Positions 1,633 to 41,868 of a DNA stretch of 64,000 bases are shown here, one piece after another. How positions within the stretch are numbered: position 1 is the first letter of the stretch; every line of letters starts with the position of its first letter. The position numbers and the translations under genes were made by a program. The notes beneath the pieces were generated by a model, which saw nothing but the letters and a program-made list of their open reading frames with translations, was not told where the DNA came from and searched no databases. The stretch spans positions 62,001-126,000 of the forward strand of contig JAAXNY010000021.1 in assembly GCA_013420905.1 (NCBI GenBank), in the 5' to 3' direction. Source of the DNA: Collybia mongolica (taxonomy: Eukaryota > Basidiomycota > Agaricomycetes > Agaricales > Clitocybaceae).

Positions 1633-2570
1633 TTCCCACAATACAAAATATTGCATATCTCCACAATGACAAGGCCTATGGATGCAATTTAAATTGCTAC
1701 TACTAGATATGGTGAAGGGCTACCCAATTGGTGCATTTATGTATATTTGTATGTGTTTGTACATCATCAAATATCATGATCAAAAGCAGCTCTCTTACTA
1801 CAAGCATGTTACAAATGAATATCAAGTTTGTGTATGACTTTGCCATACAGCTAGCCAAACAAACAATACCATCAAAGTTCCCACACTATAAATCATTGCA
1901 TATCTCAACAACAACAAGGCCTATGGATGTAATTTAAATTGCTAGTGTTAGATATGGTGAAGTAGTACCTCATGTATGTGTTTATATGTAATTATATTTG
2001 CTTGTATTTTCTAAACATTATCAACATCTTTTTTCTTGCTGCATATTACAAATGAATACTGTCTGTATATCACTTCATCACACATCTGGCCAAACAAACA
2101 ATAATACTAAAGAAATTTCCCACAATATAGATGATGCATGTTTCAGCAAACACAAAGCTGATGGACATGCTACTACTAGGCATTGTAAGGAATACATTAT
2201 GTGTATGTTCATATGTGTTTGTAGTTGTTTGTACCCTTCCAAATCTCATTATCAACAACAGCCTTTTTACTACATATTACAAATGAATATCATCTGTATA
2301 TTACTTTGCCAACATCTGGCCAAACAAACAGTATTAATGAAATTCCCACAATATAGATGATGCATATCTCAGCAAATACAAGGCTAATGGACACAATTGA
2401 AATTGCTGCTACTCCTAGACACATGGAGGGGGTACATCAAAAAATCTATATTTATATTTATTTGTACCTTTCCAAGTTTGATTATAATTTCTTGTTATAT
2501 TTATTTTAATATCACATTTATATATTACTTGGCCAAAAGCATAGCCAAACAAGTCAATGTGGATGCTCCT
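1633..2570 (+). repeat. Four-unit diverged tandem repeat, ~240 bp
   Basis: Units begin with TTCCCACA(A/C)TA at 1633, 1878, 2117 and 2343, giving spacings of 245, 239 and 226 bp. Each unit carries GCATATCTC, an AAGGC(C/T)TATGGA-like segment, a TTTGTA-rich middle, ATTACAAATGAATA and ends near GGCCAAACAAACA. The units are clearly diverged, with no long ORF, so this is an old tandem array or degraded transposon-internal repeat. Confidence 0.75.
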
Positions 2571-2915
2571 GGAATCTATAATGCTCAATATCTTGACAAT
2601 GGTTAGCTATATGGGTATGATTAAATATGGTTGTGATAATACAAGAAAAAAACACTTAACAGGCATATGTACATTTGTTTGAAGTTTGTCTTTGATAATA
2701 ATATTTCCATTTTTAGCATATCTGATAAGTTCTTGATTAACCCAGGATGCAAGGCTAGAAACTGTACTTTACAGTCCCCCACATGTCCTTGCGGACTGCA
2801 AAAGTCTGTGCAGACTCTGCAAGGACAGCAGGGACTCACTTACTTTCCTTTACTATTATAAATTACTTACTTACTTAAAAAAGAGTTTACTTACTGTATT
2901 TACTTACTGATCATT
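2571..2915. other. AT-rich stretch, no gene seen
   Basis: No convincing ORF. A short imperfect hairpin around TCCTTGC...GCAAGGA at about 2786-2825 and runs of TTACTTACTTAC near 2860-2900 are the only visible structure. Confidence 0.5.
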
Positions 2916-3590
2916 CTACATATAGTGATAGGAAATGTTATATATTGATAGTAAATACATAACTTTATATGGGCAGGTGCCCCTGCCACCCCTGTTGTCC
3001 TCATCAGCCCCCACGGCATTGTCAGTGGCCCGAGTTTCAGCAGTGGCACTGGCTGCTTTTCTTGTTGTCCCCATTGTTGTTGTTGTCACCCTTGTGGTGG
3101 TGGTGGTAGTCTGTTTCTTTGTTGTAGCCATTGTTGGTGCTGCTGCTGCTGCCATTGTTGCTGACTTTGTTGTTGTTGTTGTTGTTGTTGCCGTCTTCCT
3201 CAGGCTTGCCCTGCATTTGCAGTTAGGTGTGCTGGAGCACCCTGGATGTTGGCAGCCATACCCTTCTTGTCTCAGGTTCCCGAAGTGGGGGGGGGGACAT
3301 GCTGCATGGTGAGCACATAGGTGAGTGGCAGTACAGGACTCACCTCCCTCTGCCCCTTGGGGCACCCTTTCCTCATCGTCCCCTTGTTCTGCATCCATTT
3401 CTACCCTTTGCCCCACATTGTTTTGTGCATCGTCATATTGCCACTGGTTGGCATTGGGTGCATTGGCATTGGCATTGGCAGTGTGGGTGCATTCATGTTG
3501 GTGGTTTGGTGGGCATTGTTGATGTGGTTGAAGAGAACCAATGAAGACATGGCAACAGTAATGTGACTGCAGCATGTGCTTTGTAGCCAC
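2916..3590 (-). other. Low-complexity Thr/Asn/Ala-rich ORF
   Basis: A 224-codon minus-strand frame with Asn/Ala-rich (NANANAPNAN), acidic (EQGDDEE), poly-Thr and poly-Ala segments and a TTRKAASATAETRA motif that resembles the Lys/Ala/Thr-rich N-terminus of the acidic gene at the left edge. The coding strand consists of trinucleotide-type runs (GTTGTTGTT, GTGGTGGTG), so all frames are biased to be open. It may be a degraded copy of the same kind of repeat-associated gene; I do not support it as a functional CDS. Confidence 0.3.
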
Positions 3591-4639
3591 GTGACCTAGA
3601 TATGTTGACTTGAGGCTGGCTTACCTTGTGGCTAGGAATGCCCATCTTGCCCAATGGTTATGAATGCCAAACATATTACATAATGTTCTTGTCTGCATGT
3701 TCAAACCTAGCTGGATGCAAGTTTTTCAGCACTGTTATGTTATGTTATTAATAACAAATAGTATATATAATTTGAGTAAATAAAAATTATATTGAATCTG
3801 ATTAGTAATAGACTGGTCGTGTGGACTCCACAAGCTGTCCATCCATGCTTGTCTGCATGTCTGCATAAAATTACACAGGACTCAGCATGGATGCAGATTG
3901 TCATTTGGCTGAGTGTCCTGCCAAATGAGTCTGCACAGGTTATGTGGCTTGGTGTAAAGACTTTGCTAGAAATAAAATGTTAAATGTTGAATGGTTGATA
4001 TACATTTCAATACTGTGGGAACTTGTTTCTATTATAGGCATTTGAATTGATATTACTTCCTTATATCACACAAAATATAAGTCTATACAAGAACTTGTTC
4101 CCCACACAAGCCTGCAACTCCTCTGCTGTCCTCAGCTACTACTGCCCCCTTATTTGATTCTGCATTAGTGCTTACTGGTGTGGGATGTGCAAGGGATGGG
4201 TTGTGTTTGCATGCTATTGCAGTAGGTGGCCTCCTGTATTCAATGGTATTCCAGAGGGTGGGGGTTGTCTAAGGTCTGGGGCTGTGCAACAGTGAAATAC
4301 TTGCCCATACCCTACCACACTGTAAAGACTTGCATCACATTGAGTGTTAGAAGGGGGGAATGATATGAGCAGCAGGGTTCAGCCACACAGGGAAGGGGGC
4401 ACCAGAGAACTAAGTGGGCTTTATTGCAAGAAATCTGGATATGATAATCATACTCAGTATCCAGTTCCCTCTTGCCTCAAGGCAACTAAGTAGTCTTGCT
4501 ATGATTATCAGACCAGGTTCTCTTCCACAATCTTTTTATCCCTGGCACACATTATTACAACATGCTTTATTAGCACAAGATTGTAAATTCTGAGTGCAGA
4601 CAGTTGCCTGTCATATCAATGGGTAAGTTCCTGATTACT
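3591..4639. other. Repeat-like intergenic DNA
   Basis: AT-rich DNA with short low-scoring frames only. TGTCTGCATG words recur at 3691 and 3851. No coding or RNA gene is supported. Confidence 0.5.
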
Positions 4640-5104
4640 TCATGAGCATCCATCCATGTGCATGCTGTGGTTTTGATGCACCTTTATACTTGGATCAGAA
4701 AATGCAGCCAAACTTTCCTCAATTGCCTTGCACTTGCATGCCATTATCTCTGTCACTATTTCTTCATTACTGTTGCTCTCAGAGCTCTCATTACTGTTGC
4801 TATATCTTTCTCTCATCTTAGTTTCCACCACACTCAGTTGATTATCTGCTGAGGCCTGAACTTTCTGTTGCATGGCTGCTCTATACTTGAGGAGGTCAAG
4901 CTCTTGTTGCATTACTTTATTCTCATCAGTAAGTTTTTGAATCCTGGTTTCTTGTTCTTCATTATTGATTTCAAGTTGGTTGATTCTCATGTCATGCTTG
5001 TTCAAGGTTGCCAAGAAAACACTAGCATTTGCTTTTGAAGTCTTCAGCTGAGTAATTGTAGGTCCACATAGACTGCTTGTTGCAGGATCACAGCTCTTGT
5101 TCAT
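4640..5104 (-). CDS. Small coiled-coil protein, unknown
   Basis: Intronless 154-residue frame starting at ATG 5102-5104. Residues about 30-75 form a good coiled-coil heptad pattern (NQLEINNEEQETRIQKLTDE, then more Gln/Glu/Leu), followed by a Ser/Asn/Glu-rich stretch (SNSNESSESNSNEE) and a short C-terminal part with CKCKAIEESLAAF. It has no recognised DNA-binding basic region. It sits alone in repeat-rich DNA, so it is probably part of, or left over from, a mobile element; function unknown. Confidence 0.4.
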   Translation of the reverse strand: MNKSCDPATSSLCGPTITQLKTSKANASVFLATLNKHDMRINQLEINNEEQETRIQKLTDENKVMQQELDLLKYRAAMQQKVQASADNQLSVVETKMRERYSNSNESSESNSNEEIVTEIMACKCKAIEESLAAFSDPSIKVHQNHSMHMDGCS

Positions 5105-6071
5105 TGTTATACCATGGGTTTATTGAGACAAGGGGCATGTCAATGCAATGTGTTTGCTCACAAGGATCACATGTACCATTTTTTTTGCCACCATGGTTCT
5201 TGACAGCTGTCAGATGTAATTAAAGTTATTAATATAGCCTTTCCTCATTGTGAAGAGCATGGAATAGCAGAGAAAACTGGAGAATGCAAGCCCCACTAAG
5301 TATAAACATTATACAGTCATGATATGTTTGGCAAAACTCTGGTGAAATGACAAGCAAAATGTTAGGAATGTTTAAGTTAGGAGTAATAACCCAGAAATAT
5401 TCTGTATGGAGTATTTTGGGTGAAATACAAGGGTGTTTTGTGAGATACTTGAATTTTTCTTACATTTCACATGGTGTGATATCTATGACTTTGCACTGTG
5501 CTTATGAGGGCCAATGCAAGCATGGCATATCCAAGTTCAAAAGAGTGGATAGGTAAGTTTTGTAAAATCCCATTGATAGTTGAATACTACCAAATTTGTG
5601 ACATCTGAGCTGGTCATTGGGGTGACTTGTTGCCACCCTTTGGGTGGCTCCTCGTGCCCATGATCAGGCAAGGGGGGAAAGTGAAGATAAATCTTCCTCT
5701 CTGAGTCCCACTCTAATCAGGACAAATAAAGAATTCAAAGCCAGCCTAAGAAAAATAAAGTCATGTAAATAAAGACAAGTAAACCACTATCACGGCAATT
5801 ACCGCAACGATTGAGGTAAGAAAACTTCTGGCCCGTCCAGAAGGTATAACCTCATTCGAAATCGAACTCGGAAAAACCATTCCACGTGACATGGGCAAAA
5901 CTCATCCAAACTCAGCAAATATCGTGAAGAGAGCACATCTCTGTTAATTACGATAAGTCTTCTCCCTCCCCTCCTCATTTCTCAACGTACTTTCATTACA
6001 TGATCAGTCCAACCCTTCATTATTTGTGTTCCAGAAAGTATCTTTCAACGTAAGCTACACATCCTCCCTCT
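5105..6071. other. Intergenic, no gene seen
   Basis: AT-rich to about 5.8 kb, then the base composition changes to that of the gene-dense region. Short ORFs here lack coding character. This is the boundary between the repeat block and the gene block. Confidence 0.5.
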
Positions 6072-20013: not shown

Positions 20014-20449
20014 AACCGATTGTAGATACCCAACGTTGGTTGAATGTCATGTAGGTATCACGGACTTCACTTGACTACAATAGGACCATACTGTACAAGT
20101 GGTCTTCACAGCAATATGTCAGCAACACTAAATACTTGAGGCAGTTAGAAGTAGCTGGGCGAGAACATGATGTGAACAGCCATAGATGACTGATCTGATT
20201 AGTATTTCATATTTAGCTTCAACTTAATGGACATATCCTGTTGCATAGGGTGTGGTATGACTCAAGTCGCGATGAAATGTGTACTTTACGGGTGTTCAGT
20301 TTGGGTTTTGGGGAGATTTGTGTGCCTAGGTATGATGGGGACAGGATGTAGGTTAGGGTTCCGGAAGAAACCCCTTATTTATTAACATCGTAGTTTCTAA
20401 CAGGTTAGTAACATGTTAGTAACATGTTAGTCATTAACTCGCTCAAAAG
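20014..20449. other. 3' region with TTAGTAAC repeats
   Basis: Non-coding DNA after ACH1. At 20359-20440 a segment (agggttccggaagaaac, then gttagtaacatg repeated) matches a similar segment at 22600-22720 on the other side of the palindrome loop (agggttcgggaagaaact, then gttagtaac and gttactaac). This looks like the end of a second repeat family bordering the inverted repeat. Confidence 0.5.
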
Positions 20450-20959
20450 AGGCCCCCGGACGCTCCCATATACCTTCGGCCCGAAATTTCCCGAAAATTG
20501 GTCTCAAATCCCCAATGTTTTAGGTCTCAAATCCCCTATCCAGGCTGGGGTTTATGTTTAAAACATAAAACATACGGAAAACATAGAAAACAAACATAGA
20601 AAACAAACATAGATGTTAAAAAATCGGGCAGCTGTTTTAGTGCTGGGTGCCATCCTGACTCGACGCGATTGAGAGAAAGCCTTTTTTTTTCACCTTCTTT
20701 GCAAACTTCCTTCCCACTTGTGATCCGAACCAACTTCTCGATGCAGACGTTACGAATCGCAAACGTCAACCTCACCATTTATTTACATAACAATTACCCA
20801 AAAAGTTTTGGCCGCGAGGCTCTGAAATCCCCAATAATGGGCCGAAGATTTCAAAAAATTTCTCTCAAATCCCCTATCTTAGGTCGAAGATTTTGGCCAA
20901 TTTGGGGTCTGAAATCCCCAAAATTTCGGCCGAAGGTATATGGGAGCGTCCGGGGGCCT
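20450..20959. mobile_element. 510-bp hAT-like MITE (left copy)
   Basis: Terminal inverted repeats begin AGGCCCCCGGACGCTCCCAT and continue through ATACCTTCGGCC at both ends (20450 and 20959 inward). No transposase; the internal open frames are spurious. CTATTAAT lies directly right of the element, but the matching duplication is absent on the left, where GCTCAAAAG is found. The other copy (23372-23881) has an intact 8-bp target duplication, which with the short TIRs suggests the hAT superfamily. Confidence 0.8.
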
Positions 20960-21526
20960 CTATTAATCTTGCGGGAAATTTGCTCCATGTGAGCAGGTTG
21001 CCTTTGCGCAATATAAATGACACACTCGGGTATGCAACGTGACAGAATGTGTTTATGACGGGACCGCTTCATGATCGTGAGCATCATCAATGGAGGCTGT
21101 GCAAATGAATTAGCCGACCAACGCCGGAAGGGGCACAGCCTTACAATGCTCTGCCACAACGGTCAACTATCACAGCTGTCCTGTTCGGGGAACCTTCGAG
21201 AACATATTGACTCCGCAATGTACTGACGTGCACACCATACAGGAATATTGCTCAGCCTCTTAAATGCCGGTTACTGCGCCCACGGAAGTTGGAACGTTCA
21301 GCTTCCTACTTTAGTTATCAGTGACTTGTCACCAACCATACCGCCTTTCGATCTCGTCGGCATAAGAACTCGCAGGTAGCAAGCAGGTCTGGCAATCACC
21401 CGGCCGCAGGATATCCATAAAAGCCCAGGGACTAGTACCCACCGTTCTCAGGAGGCCCTTCTTACTCATACCCAACGATTCCAACCTCATTCCTTCGCTG
21501 TTCATCTTCGATGACAGAATACGACT
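20450..21526. repeat. Left arm of 3.4-kb inverted repeat
   Basis: These 1,077 bp are repeated in reverse orientation at 22797-23881 (1,085 bp). The size difference is one 8-bp insertion (caatgtaa-type, near 23180) in the right arm; otherwise only scattered substitutions are seen. The arm holds a 510-bp MITE, about 550 bp of upstream DNA, and the ATG plus first codons (MTEYD) of the loop gene. It ends exactly after GACT of codon 6 (21526). Confidence 0.92.
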
Positions 21527-22178
21527 TCTCCCCCGAGGCGCACCACCGCTATCTCGAGAGCATGCGCGGAATCTCCAAATGGGTGGACCAGACAGAGCAA
21601 CATAGGTCCCAGTTCGAGAACGCTGCGGCGCTGGCCCAACAGGGCAGGAAGGAGCACAAAGGTCGTTTAGCGAAGAGAAGAAGCTCTCGACGGCCACGCC
21701 CCTCATCCTTGCCACTTCCACCTCAACCTGGGATGATGTACGCGCCCTATCCAACGTCACCCTACTCGGGCTCTTCATCCAATGGGTTCGGATACTCCAG
21801 CGCACCGAACTCTCCAGGTCCCATGCCATCGTCGCCCTTGTACCACCACCCTCCTCAGTACATGATCCCCGCACCAAACTATGGGTACGGTGTGCCCCCG
21901 TTGTACTTACCATACGGATTCACACAAGGGTACCCTACGAGTCCATCGCATTCACATGCTCATGGGGCGTCATACGCCTTTCCGCCCTCACCGCCTTTCG
22001 GACAATTCCCGGGAATGAGCGGCGGCAGTATGATGGTGCCGGGCTACATCGTTCTCCCGCAGTCAAGTGTAAGGAAAGGGAGTCATAGACGAAGATCGAT
22101 GTCCTATGTGGTACGTTTATCCGCCGTCCGATCCGTTTCTCCATGCTCATGATCTCGTTTTACCTGTAGTATGTCTAA
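21511..22178 (+). CDS. Pro/Ser-rich protein with MTEYD(F/Y)SPEA N-terminus
   Basis: ATG at 21511; exon 1 ends at 22110, a 59-bp GT..AG intron (22111-22169) follows, and exon 2 is only 9 nt (Tyr-Val-stop at 22170-22178). The N-terminus (MTEYDFSPEAHHRYLESMRG, ISKWVDQTEQH) is shared with the gene at 56899, so the two are paralogues with a conserved ~35-residue start. The rest is Pro/Ser/Tyr/Gly-rich low complexity (PPQYMIPAPNYGYGVPPLYL) with a basic RKGSHRRRSMSY end. No signal peptide. Function unknown. It lies in the loop of the inverted repeat; its promoter and first five codons are in the left arm, hence duplicated. Confidence 0.7.
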
Positions 22179-22796
22179 TTGACATCTTGACTTCCGGATT
22201 AATGACTCGTTACACAACACATTACCCTTTGGGGATAACTGCGCCAATACACGCACGCAATCACACCGCCTCGGAGCACCCCTCAGATTTAAGGTACTGA
22301 GTCGGCGTCATCCGGATGTTACCAGGCCGATTACAAAGGACGTCCTTCAGACACTGATATGCGAACTTTCTGTTGTAACAGTCTTTATAATACCCCTACT
22401 CTCGCTAAATACAACACCAATACAGCGACATTCTCTCGTTTATCTGTTGGCTCCCGTCAATCAAGTCCCTTGAACGTTCCGGAACCAAGTAAATTTTTCG
22501 TTAAACCACGAAATTGGTGATTTTATATTATACAAACATAGGTAGATTGAACCATAAGCTAAGCGAGATATACGATAACCTCTCATCTCCAACCTACATT
22601 AGGGTTCGGGAAGAAACTCCGAGGTTAGTAACTAACAGGTTACTAACATGGCAGCTTTGGAGGGGGTTATTCACAGACGTTAATAACATGTTACTAACAT
22701 GGATGTTAGTAACACGTTAAAATTTGTTAGAAATGTTATTAACACTGTTAATAATTGTTAATAATTGTTAAAAAATCCCCCTCCCCTACCAATCCC
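22179..22796. other. Loop of inverted repeat, downstream of gene
   Basis: Non-coding. From about 22600 it contains repeated GTTAGTAAC and GTTACTAAC words and then ttaataattg runs up to the right arm. These words are the same as those left of the left arm. Confidence 0.5.
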
Positions 22797-22812
22797 AGTC
22801 GTATTCTGTCAT
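22797..22812 (-). pseudogene. Duplicated ATG and first codons of loop gene
   Basis: On the minus strand the right arm repeats the loop gene's promoter and its first codons (MTEYD), then runs into loop DNA and meets a stop after three more codons (WDW-stop). It therefore cannot encode the protein, but the copied promoter faces inward, toward the 3' end of the real gene. Confidence 0.75.
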
Positions 22813-23371
22813 CAAAGATGAACAGCGAAGGAATGAGGTTGGAATCGTTGGGTATGAGTAAGAAGGGCCTCCTGAGAACGGTGGGTACTAGTCCCTGGGC
22901 TTTTATGGATATCCTGCGGCCGGGTGATTGCCAGACCTGCTTGCTACCTGCGAGTTCTTATGCCGACGAGATCGAAAGGCGGTATGGTTGGTGACAAGTC
23001 ACTGATAACTAAAGTAGGAAGCTGAACGTTCCAACTTCCGTGGGCGCAGTCACCGGCATTTAAGAGGCTGAGCAATATTCCTGTATGGTGTGCACGTCAG
23101 TACATTGCGGAGTCAATCTGTTCTCGAAGGTTCCCCGAACAGGACAGCTGTGATAGTTGACCGTTGTGGCAGAGCATTGTAACAATGTAAGGCTGTGCCC
23201 CTTCCGGCGTTGGTCGGCTAATTCATTTGCACAGCCTCCATTGATGATGCTCACGATCATGAAGCGGTCCCGTCATAAACACATTCTGTCACGTTGCATA
23301 CCTGAGTGTGCCATTTATATTGCGCAAAGGCAACCTGCTCACATGGAGCAAATTTCCCGCAAGATTAATAG

Positions 23372-23881
23372 AGGCCCCCGGACGCTCCCATATACCTTCG
23401 GCCGAAATTTTGGGGATTTCAGACCCCAAATTGGCCAAAATCTTCGACCTAAGATAGGGGATTTGAGAGAAATTTTTTGAAATCTTCGGCCCATTATTGG
23501 GGATTTCAGAGCCTCGCGGCCAAAACTTTTTGGGTAATTGTTATGTAAATAAATGGTGAGGTTGACGTTTGCGATTCGTAACGTCTGCATCAAGAAGTTG
23601 GTTCGGATCACAAGTGGGAAGGAAGTTTGCAAAGAAGGTGAAAAAAAAAGGCTTTCTCTCAATCGCGTCGAGTCAGGATGGCACCCAGCACTCAAACAGC
23701 TGCCCGATTTTTTAACATCTATGTTTGTTTTCTATGTTTGTTTTCTATGTTTTCCGTATGTTTTATGTTTTAAACATAAACCCCAGCCTGGATAGGGGAT
23801 TTGAGACCTAAAACATTGGGGATTTGAGACCGATTTTCGGGAAATTTCGGGCCGAAGGTATATGGGAGCGTCCGGGGGCCT
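23372..23881. mobile_element. 510-bp hAT-like MITE (right copy, with TSD)
   Basis: Same element and length as at 20450, inverted. It is flanked on both sides by ATTAATAG (23364-23371 and 23882-23889), a perfect 8-bp target-site duplication. This marks the right arm as the original insertion site and the left arm as the copy. Non-autonomous. Confidence 0.88.
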
Positions 23882-24125
23882 ATTAATAGTGGGCACCTGG
23901 TAACGCATTTTCATTCCGCAAACGAATACTTATAATTATCATCTCGTACTTATAGTGCAATTTAGGAAAATGCTGCAGTTAGAATATATAGAAATTCTAT
24001 AGTTTTCCCCTGTAATACCCTTTCTATGTATTGTAAGCGCAAATTTCAGAAAATGAGTCACCTGGATACATAAGAATTCAATAGTTGCAATCCCCCCCCT
24101 CCGTAATGATACCTCTGCTATTTAT

Positions 24126-35937: not shown

Positions 35938-36074
35938 TTTCGGGATGTAGTCGTGTGTAGGATGGAATTATGTGATTACTAATGTATCCCAGCTTGTAGC
36001 CACATCACTGATGCATATTTCACTTTACAATTTACCCTACGGATATGTATGAATACCTTGTTTGAGAAATATAA

Positions 36075-38164
36075 TCACTGGGTGCAGGGCACAGTACCAT
36101 TGAACATGATATTATGTAAGTATTGTGAAAGTATGCAGTATACTATATAAATACTCTTAGCTAAGTATTTGAATGGTATGCAGAGTACTATCACATTAAT
36201 GAGAACCATAGTATTGTGCATGTATCATGAATGGGATCAGTATACCTCTCATGTACCTGTCCTGATAACAGCTAGATAATGTGAAGATAACCCCTAAGTA
36301 CCATGTGTAGAAGTATTCAATGATGCATCCTGAATACCATCATCCAACCAACTAGAGAAGTATCTTAATGGTACACAGGAATATGGGCAACATACCTTTT
36401 AGATACCAAAACAATAGATCCCAAGTACTACTAGTAGACCCTTTGAAAAGGTATGCAGAAGGTATTGTAGGTGGGCTAAAAATAACTTTCAAATATTGAC
36501 AAAGTATCTCTTGAATGATTCCTGTATACCACACCATATGTCATAAGGGAAGTACCAAGACAGGTCTTCAAATACTAAATGACACAGTATTAAGGGGGTA
36601 TAATGATAGTATCAAGATGGTACATGGAAACCAATAAATGATAAATTGGTCTATCATCACAATACCCTAAGGCTAGGTAATCAAGTGGTACAATAGGAGC
36701 AAGGCTAGAATAACATGTTAGTATTTTAGAAAAAGGTATGATGATGTTAATATGTGATAAATGTCACATAATATACTTAAGATACCCTAGATTACATACA
36801 GAAGTAGTACCTTATAGGCCTTCACTAACAACTTGAATGTTTGCTGTTCTGACACCCATATCATCAGTGAAAATGTTTACACAAACTTTGGGTCTATGTC
36901 TTAGAGCCAAACTCCATATAATGTATGTTTCCTAAACAGCAGGCTCTCATCTTGGAACATATACAGGTCCTGGATACACACATAACAGTAGGATTTCAGA
37001 TATGCATCATATGTCTGCATATACATATATCTCTGGAAGGAGCTTGTATCTGGTATACACATATCTGTGGTAGATTCCTGAATCTGTATATACATATATT
37101 GTGCCTGTATATGTGTATCCTCCTGGAAGACTATATACATGTCACGTATCTGGGATATATTCTTGGGCCTATGTATACACATATCACATATCTCTGGAAG
37201 AACCTTGATCTGCATATACATGTATCTGAAGTGACATATCTAGGATACATTCTTGGGTCCATGTATACACATATCACATATCTCTGGAAGAACCTTGATC
37301 TGCATATACATGTATCTGAAGTGACATATCTGGGATACATCCTTGGGTCCATGTATACACATATCACATATCACATATCTCTGGAAGAACCTTGATCTGC
37401 ATATACATGTATCTGAAGTGACATATCTGGGATACATTCTTGGGTCCATGTATACACATATCACATATCTCTGGAAGGACCTTGATCTGCATATACATGT
37501 ATCTGAAGTGACATATCTAGGATACATTCTTGGGCCCATGTATACACATATCACATATCTCTGGAAGGACCTTGATCTACATATACATGTATCCAAAGTG
37601 ACATATCTGGGATATATTCTTGGGTCTATGTATACATGTATCACGTATTTCTGGAAGGACCTTGATCTGCACATACATGTATCTGAAGTGACATATCTGG
37701 GATACATTCTTGGGTCCATGTATACACATATCACATATCTCTGGAAGAACCTTGATCTGCATATACATGTATCTGAAGTGACATATCTGGGATACATTAT
37801 TGGGTCTATGTATACACATATCACATATCACATATCTCTGGAAGGACATTGCAATTGATCTACATATGCATATCTGTGGCAGATTTTTGGATCTATATAT
37901 ATATATGAGGCAGGACCTCAGATGTGCATATACATACATGGATCTGGGTCTCATGTCTGCATATATATACATATCTTTGGTGGAATCTGGGGTCCACCTG
38001 TCCATATATCCATGGTAATTTCTAGGTCTGTTATATATCTCTGGGATATATCCTTGGGTCCATGTATACATGTATCCAGGTACTCTACCTGCCACTGTTA
38101 TATATATATATGGTCCCTAAAATCTTATATTTGTATATGCACATATCTCTGGAAGAACCTTGGT
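36075..38164. repeat. Left arm of 5.57-kb giant palindrome
   Basis: 2,090 bp, reverse-complemented at 39554-41643 with the same length. Proteins conceptually read from both arms are identical over long stretches; the only difference I noticed is a G/A in the last repeat (ggaagaacc versus ggaaggacc). Outer ends: TCACTGGGTGCAGGGCACAG begins the arm at 36075. Outer 0.8 kb is unique AT-rich DNA, inner 1.2 kb is minisatellite. No target-site duplication or recognisable transposon end is visible at 36074/41644. Confidence 0.93.
37150..37860 (+). repeat. 90-bp minisatellite, left arm
   Basis: Eight regular units; the GGG(T/C)C(C/T)ATGTATACAC landmark recurs at about 37167, 37255, 37345, 37442, 37532, 37622, 37712 and 37802, i.e. 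every 90 bp except one 97-bp step caused by an extra 7 bp. Each unit encodes 30 residues without a stop on the plus strand (HITYLWKNLDLHIHVSEVTY) and is also open on the minus strand. Degenerate units extend outward to about 36950 and inward to 38164. Confidence 0.92.
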
Positions 38165-39040
38165 CTACAGTCACGACTGCGTGGTGTGTCAATCTGCCGA
38201 TGGATGCACCTTTTGAGAAGGTTGTTGGTCAGCTCTTCGCAGGGCGTGGTTGGTTTCCAGGCTGTACTGCATGGTGAACTTCTTCGGCATTGGTGTTGTT
38301 TGCACTTTGAGGCTTTGTCTAGTACATCTCCACATGTCCTTGCACTGCAGGCCAAGCTACGAGGTGATGCTGTTCAACAAGAGAGACATGCTATGAAAAG
38401 ATCCCTGGAAGATGTGATGTTTTTCGTGGTGATACTACAGTCACAACTGTGTGGTGTGTTAATCCGCCAACAGACACACCATAAGAAAAGGTTGTTGGAT
38501 GGCTTTTTGCAGGGCGTGGTTGGTTTCCATGCTGTACTATGTGGTGAACTCCTTCGGCATTGGAGAAATATGGAGTCCCAGGATTTGATCAACAAAACCC
38601 CATACATCCTCACCTTGCAGACTATGCTCCGTGGTTACAGTATCCAACAAGGGAGACATGCTATGACCCGGTCCTTGGAGGATGCCATATTGTCAGTGGC
38701 AATGCTACAGTCACATCTGCGTGGTGTTTTAATCCGCCAACAAATACTTGAACTGTATGGGTTGTCTGGTCATTTGTTTCCTGGTGTGGTTTCTTTGCAG
38801 GCTATGTTGCATAATGTGATTGGGGTTCTTCAGTCTTGGAGAAACACACTCAGGAAAGGCTATCAATTCTTGAGATCACGGACATGGGTGGACTATCTAA
38901 CTGGAGGCTTGGTATTGATGCTAGTGGGAGTTGCTTTGGAAAGATGGTTGGCCAGGATTGAAGATGATCTAAAAATGCCATCACCCCGAACACATCATCT
39001 GGTGGGTCAGGGAAAGCTTCGAGGTAGATTTTGCCAATAG
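37922..39040 (+). CDS. IQ-like repeat protein with C-terminal membrane segment
   Basis: Open frame from ATG 37922 (inside the left arm) to TAG at 39038-39040. The unique part starts at 38165. Residues from there form eight consecutive 30-residue units, each opening with an IQ-like motif: LQSRLRGVSI, FQAVLHGELLRHW, LQAKLRGDAVQQ, LQSQLCGVLIRQQ, FHAVLCGELLRHW, LQTMLRGYSIQQ, LQSHLRGVLIRQQI and LQAMLHNVIG. Unit 7 fits the full IQ consensus (hydrophobic-Q-x3-R-G-x3-R). Then comes a strongly hydrophobic stretch (YLTGGLVLMLVGVALERWLA), a likely membrane anchor, and a short hydrophilic tail. IQ motifs bind calmodulin or related EF-hand proteins. The true start may be later than 37922, because the first ~80 residues are minisatellite translation. 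Not similar to any full-length protein I know. Confidence 0.5.
   Translation: MCIYIHGSGSHVCIYIHIFGGIWGPPVHISMVISRSVIYLWDISLGPCIHVSRYSTCHCYIYIWSLKSYICICTYLWKNLGLQSRLRGVSICRWMHLLRRLLVSSSQGVVGFQAVLHGELLRHWCCLHFEALSSTSPHVLALQAKLRGDAVQQERHAMKRSLEDVMFFVVILQSQLCGVLIRQQTHHKKRLLDGFLQGVVGFHAVLCGELLRHWRNMESQDLINKTPYILTLQTMLRGYSIQQGRHAMTRSLEDAILSVAMLQSHLRGVLIRQQILELYGLSGHLFPGVVSLQAMLHNVIGVLQSWRNTLRKGYQFLRSRTWVDYLTGGLVLMLVGVALERWLARIEDDLKMPSPRTHHLVGQGKLRGRFCQ
38165..38884 (+). repeat. Tandem 270-bp repeat (3 x 90 bp) in palindrome loop
   Basis: CTACAGTCAC(G/A) recurs at 38165, 38435 and 38705, exactly 270 bp apart. Each 270-bp unit holds three 90-bp subunits encoding distinct IQ-like motifs (types A, B, C); the array is ABC-ABC-AB. 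All spacings are exact multiples of 90, so selection or recent amplification has kept the frame. Confidence 0.9.
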
Positions 39041-39553
39041 CTATTAGCCCATAAAGATCTGAAGTTCTCCTGCCAATATGAATTACTGTGATCCACTGGC
39101 CCATAATCCAGATATGGGAGAATACTGGAATCCATGTTTATGCAGACCCATAGCTGTGTCTGGTAGCAAATACATATATTGGAGGTAGAATCTCAAATTT
39201 GTGTGGATAGTTTTTGTAAATTCCTGGGCCTATGTATACCATATTCTGAGGTAATGTGTATATACATACTTAGGAATCTACTACAGAGGTGGAATTCTAC
39301 CTTGGATATGTGTATACATGGACCCAATGATCTACCAGGGTCCACATATATATACAGTAGTGGTAAGTAGAGTACTTGGATATATGTATACATGGACCCA
39401 AGGATATGTCCCAGATATGTGTATCCAAACTCAAAACATTACCACAGATACATGGACATTCAGATTCTACATTTGCAATGTTCAACAGACCAAAGGATTT
39501 TCCACAGATATGGGTATACACAGACCCATATTACAGATATGTATATACACTGA
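39041..39553. other. Rest of palindrome loop
   Basis: AT-rich non-coding DNA. About 39290-39440 contains a diverged inverted copy of arm sequence (tatacatggacccaa, then gtacttggatatatgtatacatggacccaagg), like 39610-39670 in the right arm, so degenerate minisatellite-type DNA extends into the loop. Confidence 0.6.
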
Positions 39554-41643
39554 ACCAAGGTCCTTCCAGAGATATGTGCATATACAAATATAAGATTTTA
39601 GGGACCATATATATATATAACAGTGGCAGGTAGAGTACCTGGATACATGTATACATGGACCCAAGGATATATCCCAGAGATATATAACAGACCTAGAAAT
39701 TACCATGGATATATGGACAGGTGGACCCCAGATTCCACCAAAGATATGTATATATATGCAGACATGAGACCCAGATCCATGTATGTATATGCACATCTGA
39801 GGTCCTGCCTCATATATATATATAGATCCAAAAATCTGCCACAGATATGCATATGTAGATCAATTGCAATGTCCTTCCAGAGATATGTGATATGTGATAT
39901 GTGTATACATAGACCCAATAATGTATCCCAGATATGTCACTTCAGATACATGTATATGCAGATCAAGGTTCTTCCAGAGATATGTGATATGTGTATACAT
40001 GGACCCAAGAATGTATCCCAGATATGTCACTTCAGATACATGTATGTGCAGATCAAGGTCCTTCCAGAAATACGTGATACATGTATACATAGACCCAAGA
40101 ATATATCCCAGATATGTCACTTTGGATACATGTATATGTAGATCAAGGTCCTTCCAGAGATATGTGATATGTGTATACATGGGCCCAAGAATGTATCCTA
40201 GATATGTCACTTCAGATACATGTATATGCAGATCAAGGTCCTTCCAGAGATATGTGATATGTGTATACATGGACCCAAGAATGTATCCCAGATATGTCAC
40301 TTCAGATACATGTATATGCAGATCAAGGTTCTTCCAGAGATATGTGATATGTGATATGTGTATACATGGACCCAAGGATGTATCCCAGATATGTCACTTC
40401 AGATACATGTATATGCAGATCAAGGTTCTTCCAGAGATATGTGATATGTGTATACATGGACCCAAGAATGTATCCTAGATATGTCACTTCAGATACATGT
40501 ATATGCAGATCAAGGTTCTTCCAGAGATATGTGATATGTGTATACATAGGCCCAAGAATATATCCCAGATACGTGACATGTATATAGTCTTCCAGGAGGA
40601 TACACATATACAGGCACAATATATGTATATACAGATTCAGGAATCTACCACAGATATGTGTATACCAGATACAAGCTCCTTCCAGAGATATATGTATATG
40701 CAGACATATGATGCATATCTGAAATCCTACTGTTATGTGTGTATCCAGGACCTGTATATGTTCCAAGATGAGAGCCTGCTGTTTAGGAAACATACATTAT
40801 ATGGAGTTTGGCTCTAAGACATAGACCCAAAGTTTGTGTAAACATTTTCACTGATGATATGGGTGTCAGAACAGCAAACATTCAAGTTGTTAGTGAAGGC
40901 CTATAAGGTACTACTTCTGTATGTAATCTAGGGTATCTTAAGTATATTATGTGACATTTATCACATATTAACATCATCATACCTTTTTCTAAAATACTAA
41001 CATGTTATTCTAGCCTTGCTCCTATTGTACCACTTGATTACCTAGCCTTAGGGTATTGTGATGATAGACCAATTTATCATTTATTGGTTTCCATGTACCA
41101 TCTTGATACTATCATTATACCCCCTTAATACTGTGTCATTTAGTATTTGAAGACCTGTCTTGGTACTTCCCTTATGACATATGGTGTGGTATACAGGAAT
41201 CATTCAAGAGATACTTTGTCAATATTTGAAAGTTATTTTTAGCCCACCTACAATACCTTCTGCATACCTTTTCAAAGGGTCTACTAGTAGTACTTGGGAT
41301 CTATTGTTTTGGTATCTAAAAGGTATGTTGCCCATATTCCTGTGTACCATTAAGATACTTCTCTAGTTGGTTGGATGATGGTATTCAGGATGCATCATTG
41401 AATACTTCTACACATGGTACTTAGGGGTTATCTTCACATTATCTAGCTGTTATCAGGACAGGTACATGAGAGGTATACTGATCCCATTCATGATACATGC
41501 ACAATACTATGGTTCTCATTAATGTGATAGTACTCTGCATACCATTCAAATACTTAGCTAAGAGTATTTATATAGTATACTGCATACTTTCACAATACTT
41601 ACATAATATCATGTTCAATGGTACTGTGCCCTGCACCCAGTGA
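39554..41643. repeat. Right arm of 5.57-kb giant palindrome
   Basis: Reverse complement of 36075-38164; every position x in the left arm pairs with 77718-x. Ends with CTGCACCCAGTGA at 41643. Near-perfect identity to the left arm. Confidence 0.93.
39858..40568 (-). repeat. 90-bp minisatellite, right arm
   Basis: Mirror image of the left-arm minisatellite, including the same single 97-bp step, so the two arrays have not diverged even in copy number. Confidence 0.92.
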
Positions 41644-41868
41644 ATCTTTGAATCTCCGTTTATTTATCCTTCCACCTGCAGCTAGCCGTTGGCACAAAGC
41701 CATGTATAACCAGGGGAAGTCATATTATACAACAAATACAACGAGTTCACGCCCGTCCTGTCACCTCATCCCCGATCTAGGACGCGAGCGTGCTTGTAGT
41801 AGGGTCCGGAAGGGCGAAGCGGAGTGTAGTCGTGTGGCCGAGGTCCGCCTGCGTCTCTATGGAAGCTT

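Follow-up and report, generated by a model that had tools for sequence, protein, structure and literature searches.

CACTA transposons usually have short terminal inverted repeats (TIRs). The EnSpm families of rust fungi are described with CAC..GTG termini and 3-bp target-site duplications (TSDs) (PMC12730594), and CACTA elements with subterminal repeats and a TSD of 3 bp (PMC8978399). Long TIRs with tandem repeats around a variable middle are found in Drosophila FB, in Tetris and in the foldback-like Galileo. Tetris is given as non-autonomous, with TIRs of up to 1,735 bp, tandem repeats of ~220 bp and an assignment to Mutator with a TSD of 8–10 bp, and the same source, relaying work from 2008, has foldback-type examples mostly placed in Mutator (PMC4079207). 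Galileo is attributed to the P superfamily, with a TSD of 7–8 bp (PMC4168063). Here we describe a palindrome of 5,567 bp at positions 36076–41642 of a 64,000-nucleotide stretch of DNA from the agaric Collybia mongolica (hereafter the window, C21:62001-126000, from an assembly of 46 Mb in 26 contigs). It resembles EnSpm/CACTA elements in its CAC..GTG termini, its 3-bp TSD, its repetitive subterminal regions and the presence of a transposase family in the same genome, and resembles FB, Tetris and Galileo in its long, repeat-bearing TIRs. It is probably a non-autonomous cut-and-paste DNA transposon of EnSpm/CACTA type in foldback form, with hugely extended TIRs, in which the right end has been replaced by an inverted left end.

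A base-by-base check showed that position x pairs with 77718-x at 2,089 of the 2,090 positions of 36075–38164, the sole exception being 38156, and a repeat search returned the same arms, 36075–38164 and 39554–41643, with 1,389 bases between them. The near-identical 2,090-bp arms with one difference and the 1,389-bp loop described in an earlier account made from the letters of the window (the sequence-only reading) are therefore confirmed. Outside both arm limits mismatches return at a chance-like density. The outermost pair, 36075 and 41643, consists of flanking bases, the T and the A of two AAT repeats, and the inverted repeat proper comprises 2,089 bases, forming the left TIR (36076–38164, + strand) and the right TIR (39554–41642, − strand), which is the left arm copied inverted with a single difference, at the partner of 38156. 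Tandem Repeats Finder identified 7.5 copies of a 90-bp unit in each arm, at 37147–37829 (+ strand) and 39889–40571 (− strand), in keeping with the subterminal repeats of EnSpm/CACTA elements. The element, of which one full copy is known here, is also built as foldback elements are, its middle lying between long TIRs that contain tandem repeats. A structured RNA was considered and rejected, as both tests gave null results: the fold of a single 90-nt unit (37147–37236) was equalled or bettered by 180 of 200 shuffled versions (z +1.16), and Rfam returned 0 families at gathering scores across 36000–41700.

The left arm opens at 36076 with CACTGGGTGCAGGGCACAGTACC and the inverse of CACTGGGTGCAGGGCACAGTACC closes the right arm at 41642, so that the element begins with CACTG and ends with CAGTG, within the CAC..GTG, CACTA/CACTG range of EnSpm/CACTA termini. 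The trinucleotide AAT, read directly on both sides, lies immediately before 36076 (36073–36075) and identically after 41642 (41643–41645), consistent with the 3-bp TSD of this superfamily. Position 36076 is the sole position in the window with CACTG...CAGTG at exactly the element spacing; at 1.8% of window positions a trinucleotide recurs directly at that distance. The sequence-only reading, which had reported neither transposon ends nor a target duplication, was mistaken on this point. It had also proposed an undescribed mobile element and, of this, mobility stands, but the class is recognisable from the ends: given the CACTG...CAGTG termini and the AAT duplication, the palindrome can be placed as of EnSpm/CACTA type and need not belong to an undescribed class. 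By its ends alone the element is filed here as a putative non-autonomous EnSpm/CACTA member. Its direct repeat is 3 bp, unlike the 8–10 bp of Mutator-type foldback elements such as Tetris, and both its termini and its TSD, in contrast to those of Tetris and Galileo, are CACTA-type.

A palindrome of this kind might also be a composite of two inverted elements, brought together by nested or adjacent insertions and resembling one unit, and a CACTG motif at 39548–39552, on the inner edge of the right arm, could be read in this way. That motif has no target duplication, however, with ATA before 39548 as against AAT after 41642, and a single AAT pair flanks the whole unit. CACTG occurs 50 times on the + strand of the window, so that one near the junction is a modest coincidence; the motif may have arisen by chance or have been left by the repair event considered below, and a composite origin is very unlikely.

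Where the element departs from EnSpm/CACTA is in having no transposase match, in its 2,089-bp inverted repeats and in being a near-perfect palindrome with an IQ-like insert. A six-frame search of the genome gave no PF02992 (Transposase_21/tnp2) match inside the element, and neither the Transposase_21 nor the Plavaka match list has an entry within it. The host genome holds 103 Transposase_21 matches, 97 of them marked as over the cut-off; a CACTA transposase might act in trans on an element of this kind. Plavaka elements, which are relatives of EnSpm, are also abundant in this genome, with 119 matches to PF18759. The termini given for PlavakaB are CATCA..TGATG and those for PlavakaA TGT..ACA (PMC12730594), the former differing from the CACTG..CAGTG of the element. 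In the Plavaka pair compared here the shared sequence stops at ...TCCTGATG, seen at the right end only; the left CATCA end was not found in the fetched stretches. Plavaka was rejected as the source of the element ends because of this stop and of the difference in termini.

Searching the genome with the arm gave five matches, namely the two arms themselves, a 42-base piece of the loop, a stretch of contig C8 (71% over 327 bases, in which no CACTG-type ends were recognised by eye among the motif matches) and a near-complete copy on contig C9 (C9:989220-991310). A search with the loop extended the C9 copy 119 bases into the left side of the loop. Its outer end, at C9:991310, is the same to the base and borders other sequence, with CTAC before CACTGGG where the window has TAAT, and the 23-bp element end at ≤3 mismatches has three occurrences in the genome, the two element ends and the C9 copy, with 0 control matches. 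As the C9 copy spans the terminus, the left arm and 119 bases of the loop, the left junction predates the parting of the copies. The sequence-only reading had named the lack of any second copy or related structure as grounds for abandoning its proposal; the truncated C9 copy, with the same outer boundary and in the same genome, supplies one.

Compared with the left arm the C9 copy has five substitutions (36864, 36885, 38027, 38097 and 38156) and a 2-bp indel in a TA run at 38098, compared with the right arm four substitutions and the 2-bp indel, and compared with the loop start a difference at 38246. At 36864, 36885, 38027, 38097 and the indel, the last deduced from the gapless match of the arms, both window arms agree against C9, while at 38156 the right arm matches C9 and the left arm differs. 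Since the arms agree with each other against C9, they trace back to a common source that is younger than the one either has in common with C9. The earlier suggestion that the arms are either very new or kept alike by conversion is in line with this, as arms that differ once have been recently copied or homogenised. Each of the six substitutions by which the C9 copy differs from the left arm and the loop start (36864, 36885, 38027, 38097, 38156 and 38246) is a transition.

Near-identical inverted arms are a classic signature of an assembly or sequencing artefact, such as a fold-back read or a duplicated contig end. This explanation is hardly credible here: the limits of the arms coincide exactly with a transposon terminus, where a direct repeat lies in otherwise unrelated flanks; outside its first 119 bases and its arm-type repeats, the loop is matched by nothing else in the genome; and the arms differ once, at a position where the C9 copy sides with the right arm. 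We conclude that the element is real: a non-autonomous transposon of CACTA type that has taken on foldback form, was made symmetrical recently and carries an IQ-like insert. When the joined flanks were used to look for an empty site among paralogues, only the two flanks themselves were recovered.

The right part of the loop (39041–39553, − strand) carries diverged arm-type repeats, the best BLAST block showing 81% identity over 122 bases. Seventeen of its 18 BLAST blocks against the arm are in right-arm orientation, as are 57 of the 10-mers that it has in common with the arm; 27 are in the opposite orientation, because the arm repeats are partly self-complementary, and the left part of the loop has 0 in either. 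It would seem that this part is a remnant of the original right end, and an old CACTA right end would have such an appearance because CACTA elements are described with repeats close to each end (PMC8978399). A history in which the left end served to rebuild the outer right end is the most economical. An ancestral element would have had the left end, the IQ-like insert and a different right end with related subterminal repeats in inverted orientation. During repair of a break or gap, following excision or fork stalling, the outer right end may then have been resynthesised from the left end, with entry in the subterminal repeat region and copying stopping at the terminus, where both ends are supposed to be alike. 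The outcome would be identical 2.09-kb arms with a stub of the old right end left in the loop. For other transposons, changes of this sort have been put down to errors of gap repair and template switching (PMC4168063; PMC8277862).

The same features might be accounted for by an old foldback family with TIRs of ~2 kb, the arms of which are kept identical by continuing gene conversion, with the C9 copy as a truncated member. Loss of the right arm is compatible with everything in the C9 copy, and Galileo of Drosophila is reported to have dynamic TIRs, one copy having 1,575 and 1,608 bp at 97.5% identity (PMC4168063). On the other hand, the loop holds diverged subterminal repeats, mostly in right-arm orientation, which are most simply an old right end, and this assembly yielded no further palindromic copy. 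We consider an old family to be improbable, though less so than any of the other alternatives.

Several points weigh against the proposal that a CACTA-type element had its right end overwritten. What preceded the overwriting has to be reconstructed from the loop stub and a single truncated copy, since a search of this assembly at E≤10 returned no intact sibling in which the original right end is kept. Past the loop piece the C9 copy breaks at the first base of a 466-bp repeat (in the C9 stretch 985000–994900), two further copies of which, at 97%, lie at C9:3299283 and C18:146450. The other 4.1 kb fetched there contain two CCAGTG sites, both lacking a following TAC, so that for the C9 copy no duplication-bearing right end was recognised. 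The C9 copy may, for its part, be what is left of a palindromic element, repeated conversion having kept the arms similar, and an older palindrome undergoing internal conversion would show an identical pattern of arm differences relative to C9. The count of differences is small, one between the arms against four to six events, and the indel lies within a TA run. The orientation signal of the right part of the loop is not clean. As regards the class, no transposase family with the 23-bp end of the element was found. In one Transposase_21 family the shared sequence of three near-identical copies stops 2–3 bases beyond ...ACACAGTG, from which the family, seen at one end only, appears to end at CAGTG. 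The inverse of this end, CACTGTGTCCCCATTGG, has 47 matches in the genome at ≤2 mismatches, 35 of them exact, with 4 control matches, and only CACTG.GT is common to it and the element end.

The kind of element is known, and what is new is the combination of CACTA-type ends, near-perfect arms of 2 kb and a likely stub of the old end in the loop. No palindromic CACTA element was found in the titles and abstract openings of the literature on foldback elements, CACTA elements and fungal inverted repeats, which is weak evidence of its being undescribed. With one element keeping an apparent stub of its old right end and a second copy showing the left junction, the end-overwriting step becomes testable through one sibling, and the locus clearly illustrates a route by which foldback elements with long ends may come about.

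The left part of the loop (38165–39040, + strand) belongs to a stop-free frame of 393 codons, 37859–39040, that runs from the arm into the loop. From 38165 the frame consists of 30-residue units, most of them shaped like LQxxLRGxxIRQ, and thus has an IQ-like motif every 30 residues. It showed 29% identity over 151 residues (E 1e-11 for this single comparison) to a stop-free frame of the host on contig C5. The C5 frame has PF00612 IQ repeats and is preceded by a frame in which a CH-like match falls short of the Pfam cut-off. This host gene is taken to be IQGAP, its later part being presumably RasGAP-like. Pfam, with which only the main loop frame was scanned, gave no domain at E≤1, none of 1,956 candidates in a protein collection reached E≤0.01, and a search of the PDB gave one chance-level match (E 0.88). 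Between two 270-nt units of the frame the ratio of non-synonymous to synonymous divergence (dN/dS) is 0.59, with 23, 25 and 28 differences at the three codon positions, and codons that changed once did so synonymously in 8 cases and non-synonymously in 21; in a simulation the frame survived free of stops by chance with a frequency of 0.068. Neither coding nor decay is proven by these figures. The claim of the sequence-only reading that the loop encodes an IQ-repeat protein is made plausible by the similarity of the frame to the host IQGAP in its IQ region, but it is left without a recognised domain and coding is unproven.

A host-gene-like stretch between transposon ends is reminiscent of Pack-CACTA and Pack-TIR elements; here, however, the resemblance to the host IQGAP is just the 29% protein identity given above, and no DNA-level parent of the insert was found in the genome. 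The 90-bp unit of the arms has the same period as the 90-nt IQ units, and kinship between the two was rejected, 61 of 200 shuffles scoring as high.

The element is strongly depleted in CpG. Both arms are almost devoid of CpG; the left arm has 2 CpG in 2,089 bases, an observed/expected ratio (o/e) of 0.03, the right part of the loop has 0 and the IQ part an o/e of 0.38, whereas the 5-kb flanks have o/e values of 1.02 and 0.84, as for a block brought in from elsewhere; the nearest CpGs outside the element are at 36040 before it and 41657 after it. The flanks of the C9 copy are themselves poor in CpG (o/e 0.01 upstream and 0.32 downstream). At the five Transposase_21 loci computed the o/e ranges from 0.27 to 0.74, and at two Plavaka loci it is 0.49 and 0.50. 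Loss of CpG is common in the repeats of this genome and the element is at the extreme; the ordinary reading is decay of methylated CpG. Selection for CpG-free ends of the element is not shown, although an element that is CpG-free yet recently moved is worth a look. In maize, Mu killer is described as an inverted duplication of transposon sequence (PMC3440606), and the present element is likewise an inverted duplication that is predicted, from the DNA, to give a hairpin if read; it differs in that no transposase sequence was found in its arms. Silencing loci like Mu killer are characterised by a hairpin transcript and by small RNAs that act against the family. A more speculative proposal, which we regard as unlikely, is that a CACTA element made foldback by end overwriting moved recently with CpG-free cis-acting ends that cannot be CpG-methylated, and that the palindrome, if read through, would form a 2-kb hairpin that could silence its own family, as proposed for Mu killer.

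Elsewhere in the window, positions ~2000–5700 form a further nearly CpG-free block, the o/e per kilobase from 2 to 5 kb being 0.04, 0.15 and 0.00, and by eye it shares stretches with the neighbourhood of the C9 copy. There is also a second palindrome at 20447–23884, with arms of 1,080 and 1,088 bases that are 98.4% alike and a loop of 1.27 kb. The outer 510 bases of each of its arms are a miniature inverted-repeat transposable element (MITE) with the end AGGCCCCCGGACGC, which by eye has an 8-bp TSD in 3 of the 3 other copies examined and which, from the length of this duplication, we take to be hAT-like. The right MITE has the TSD CTATTAAT on both sides and the left MITE has it on the inner side only, so that the left arm of this palindrome looks like a copy that stopped exactly at the end of the MITE.

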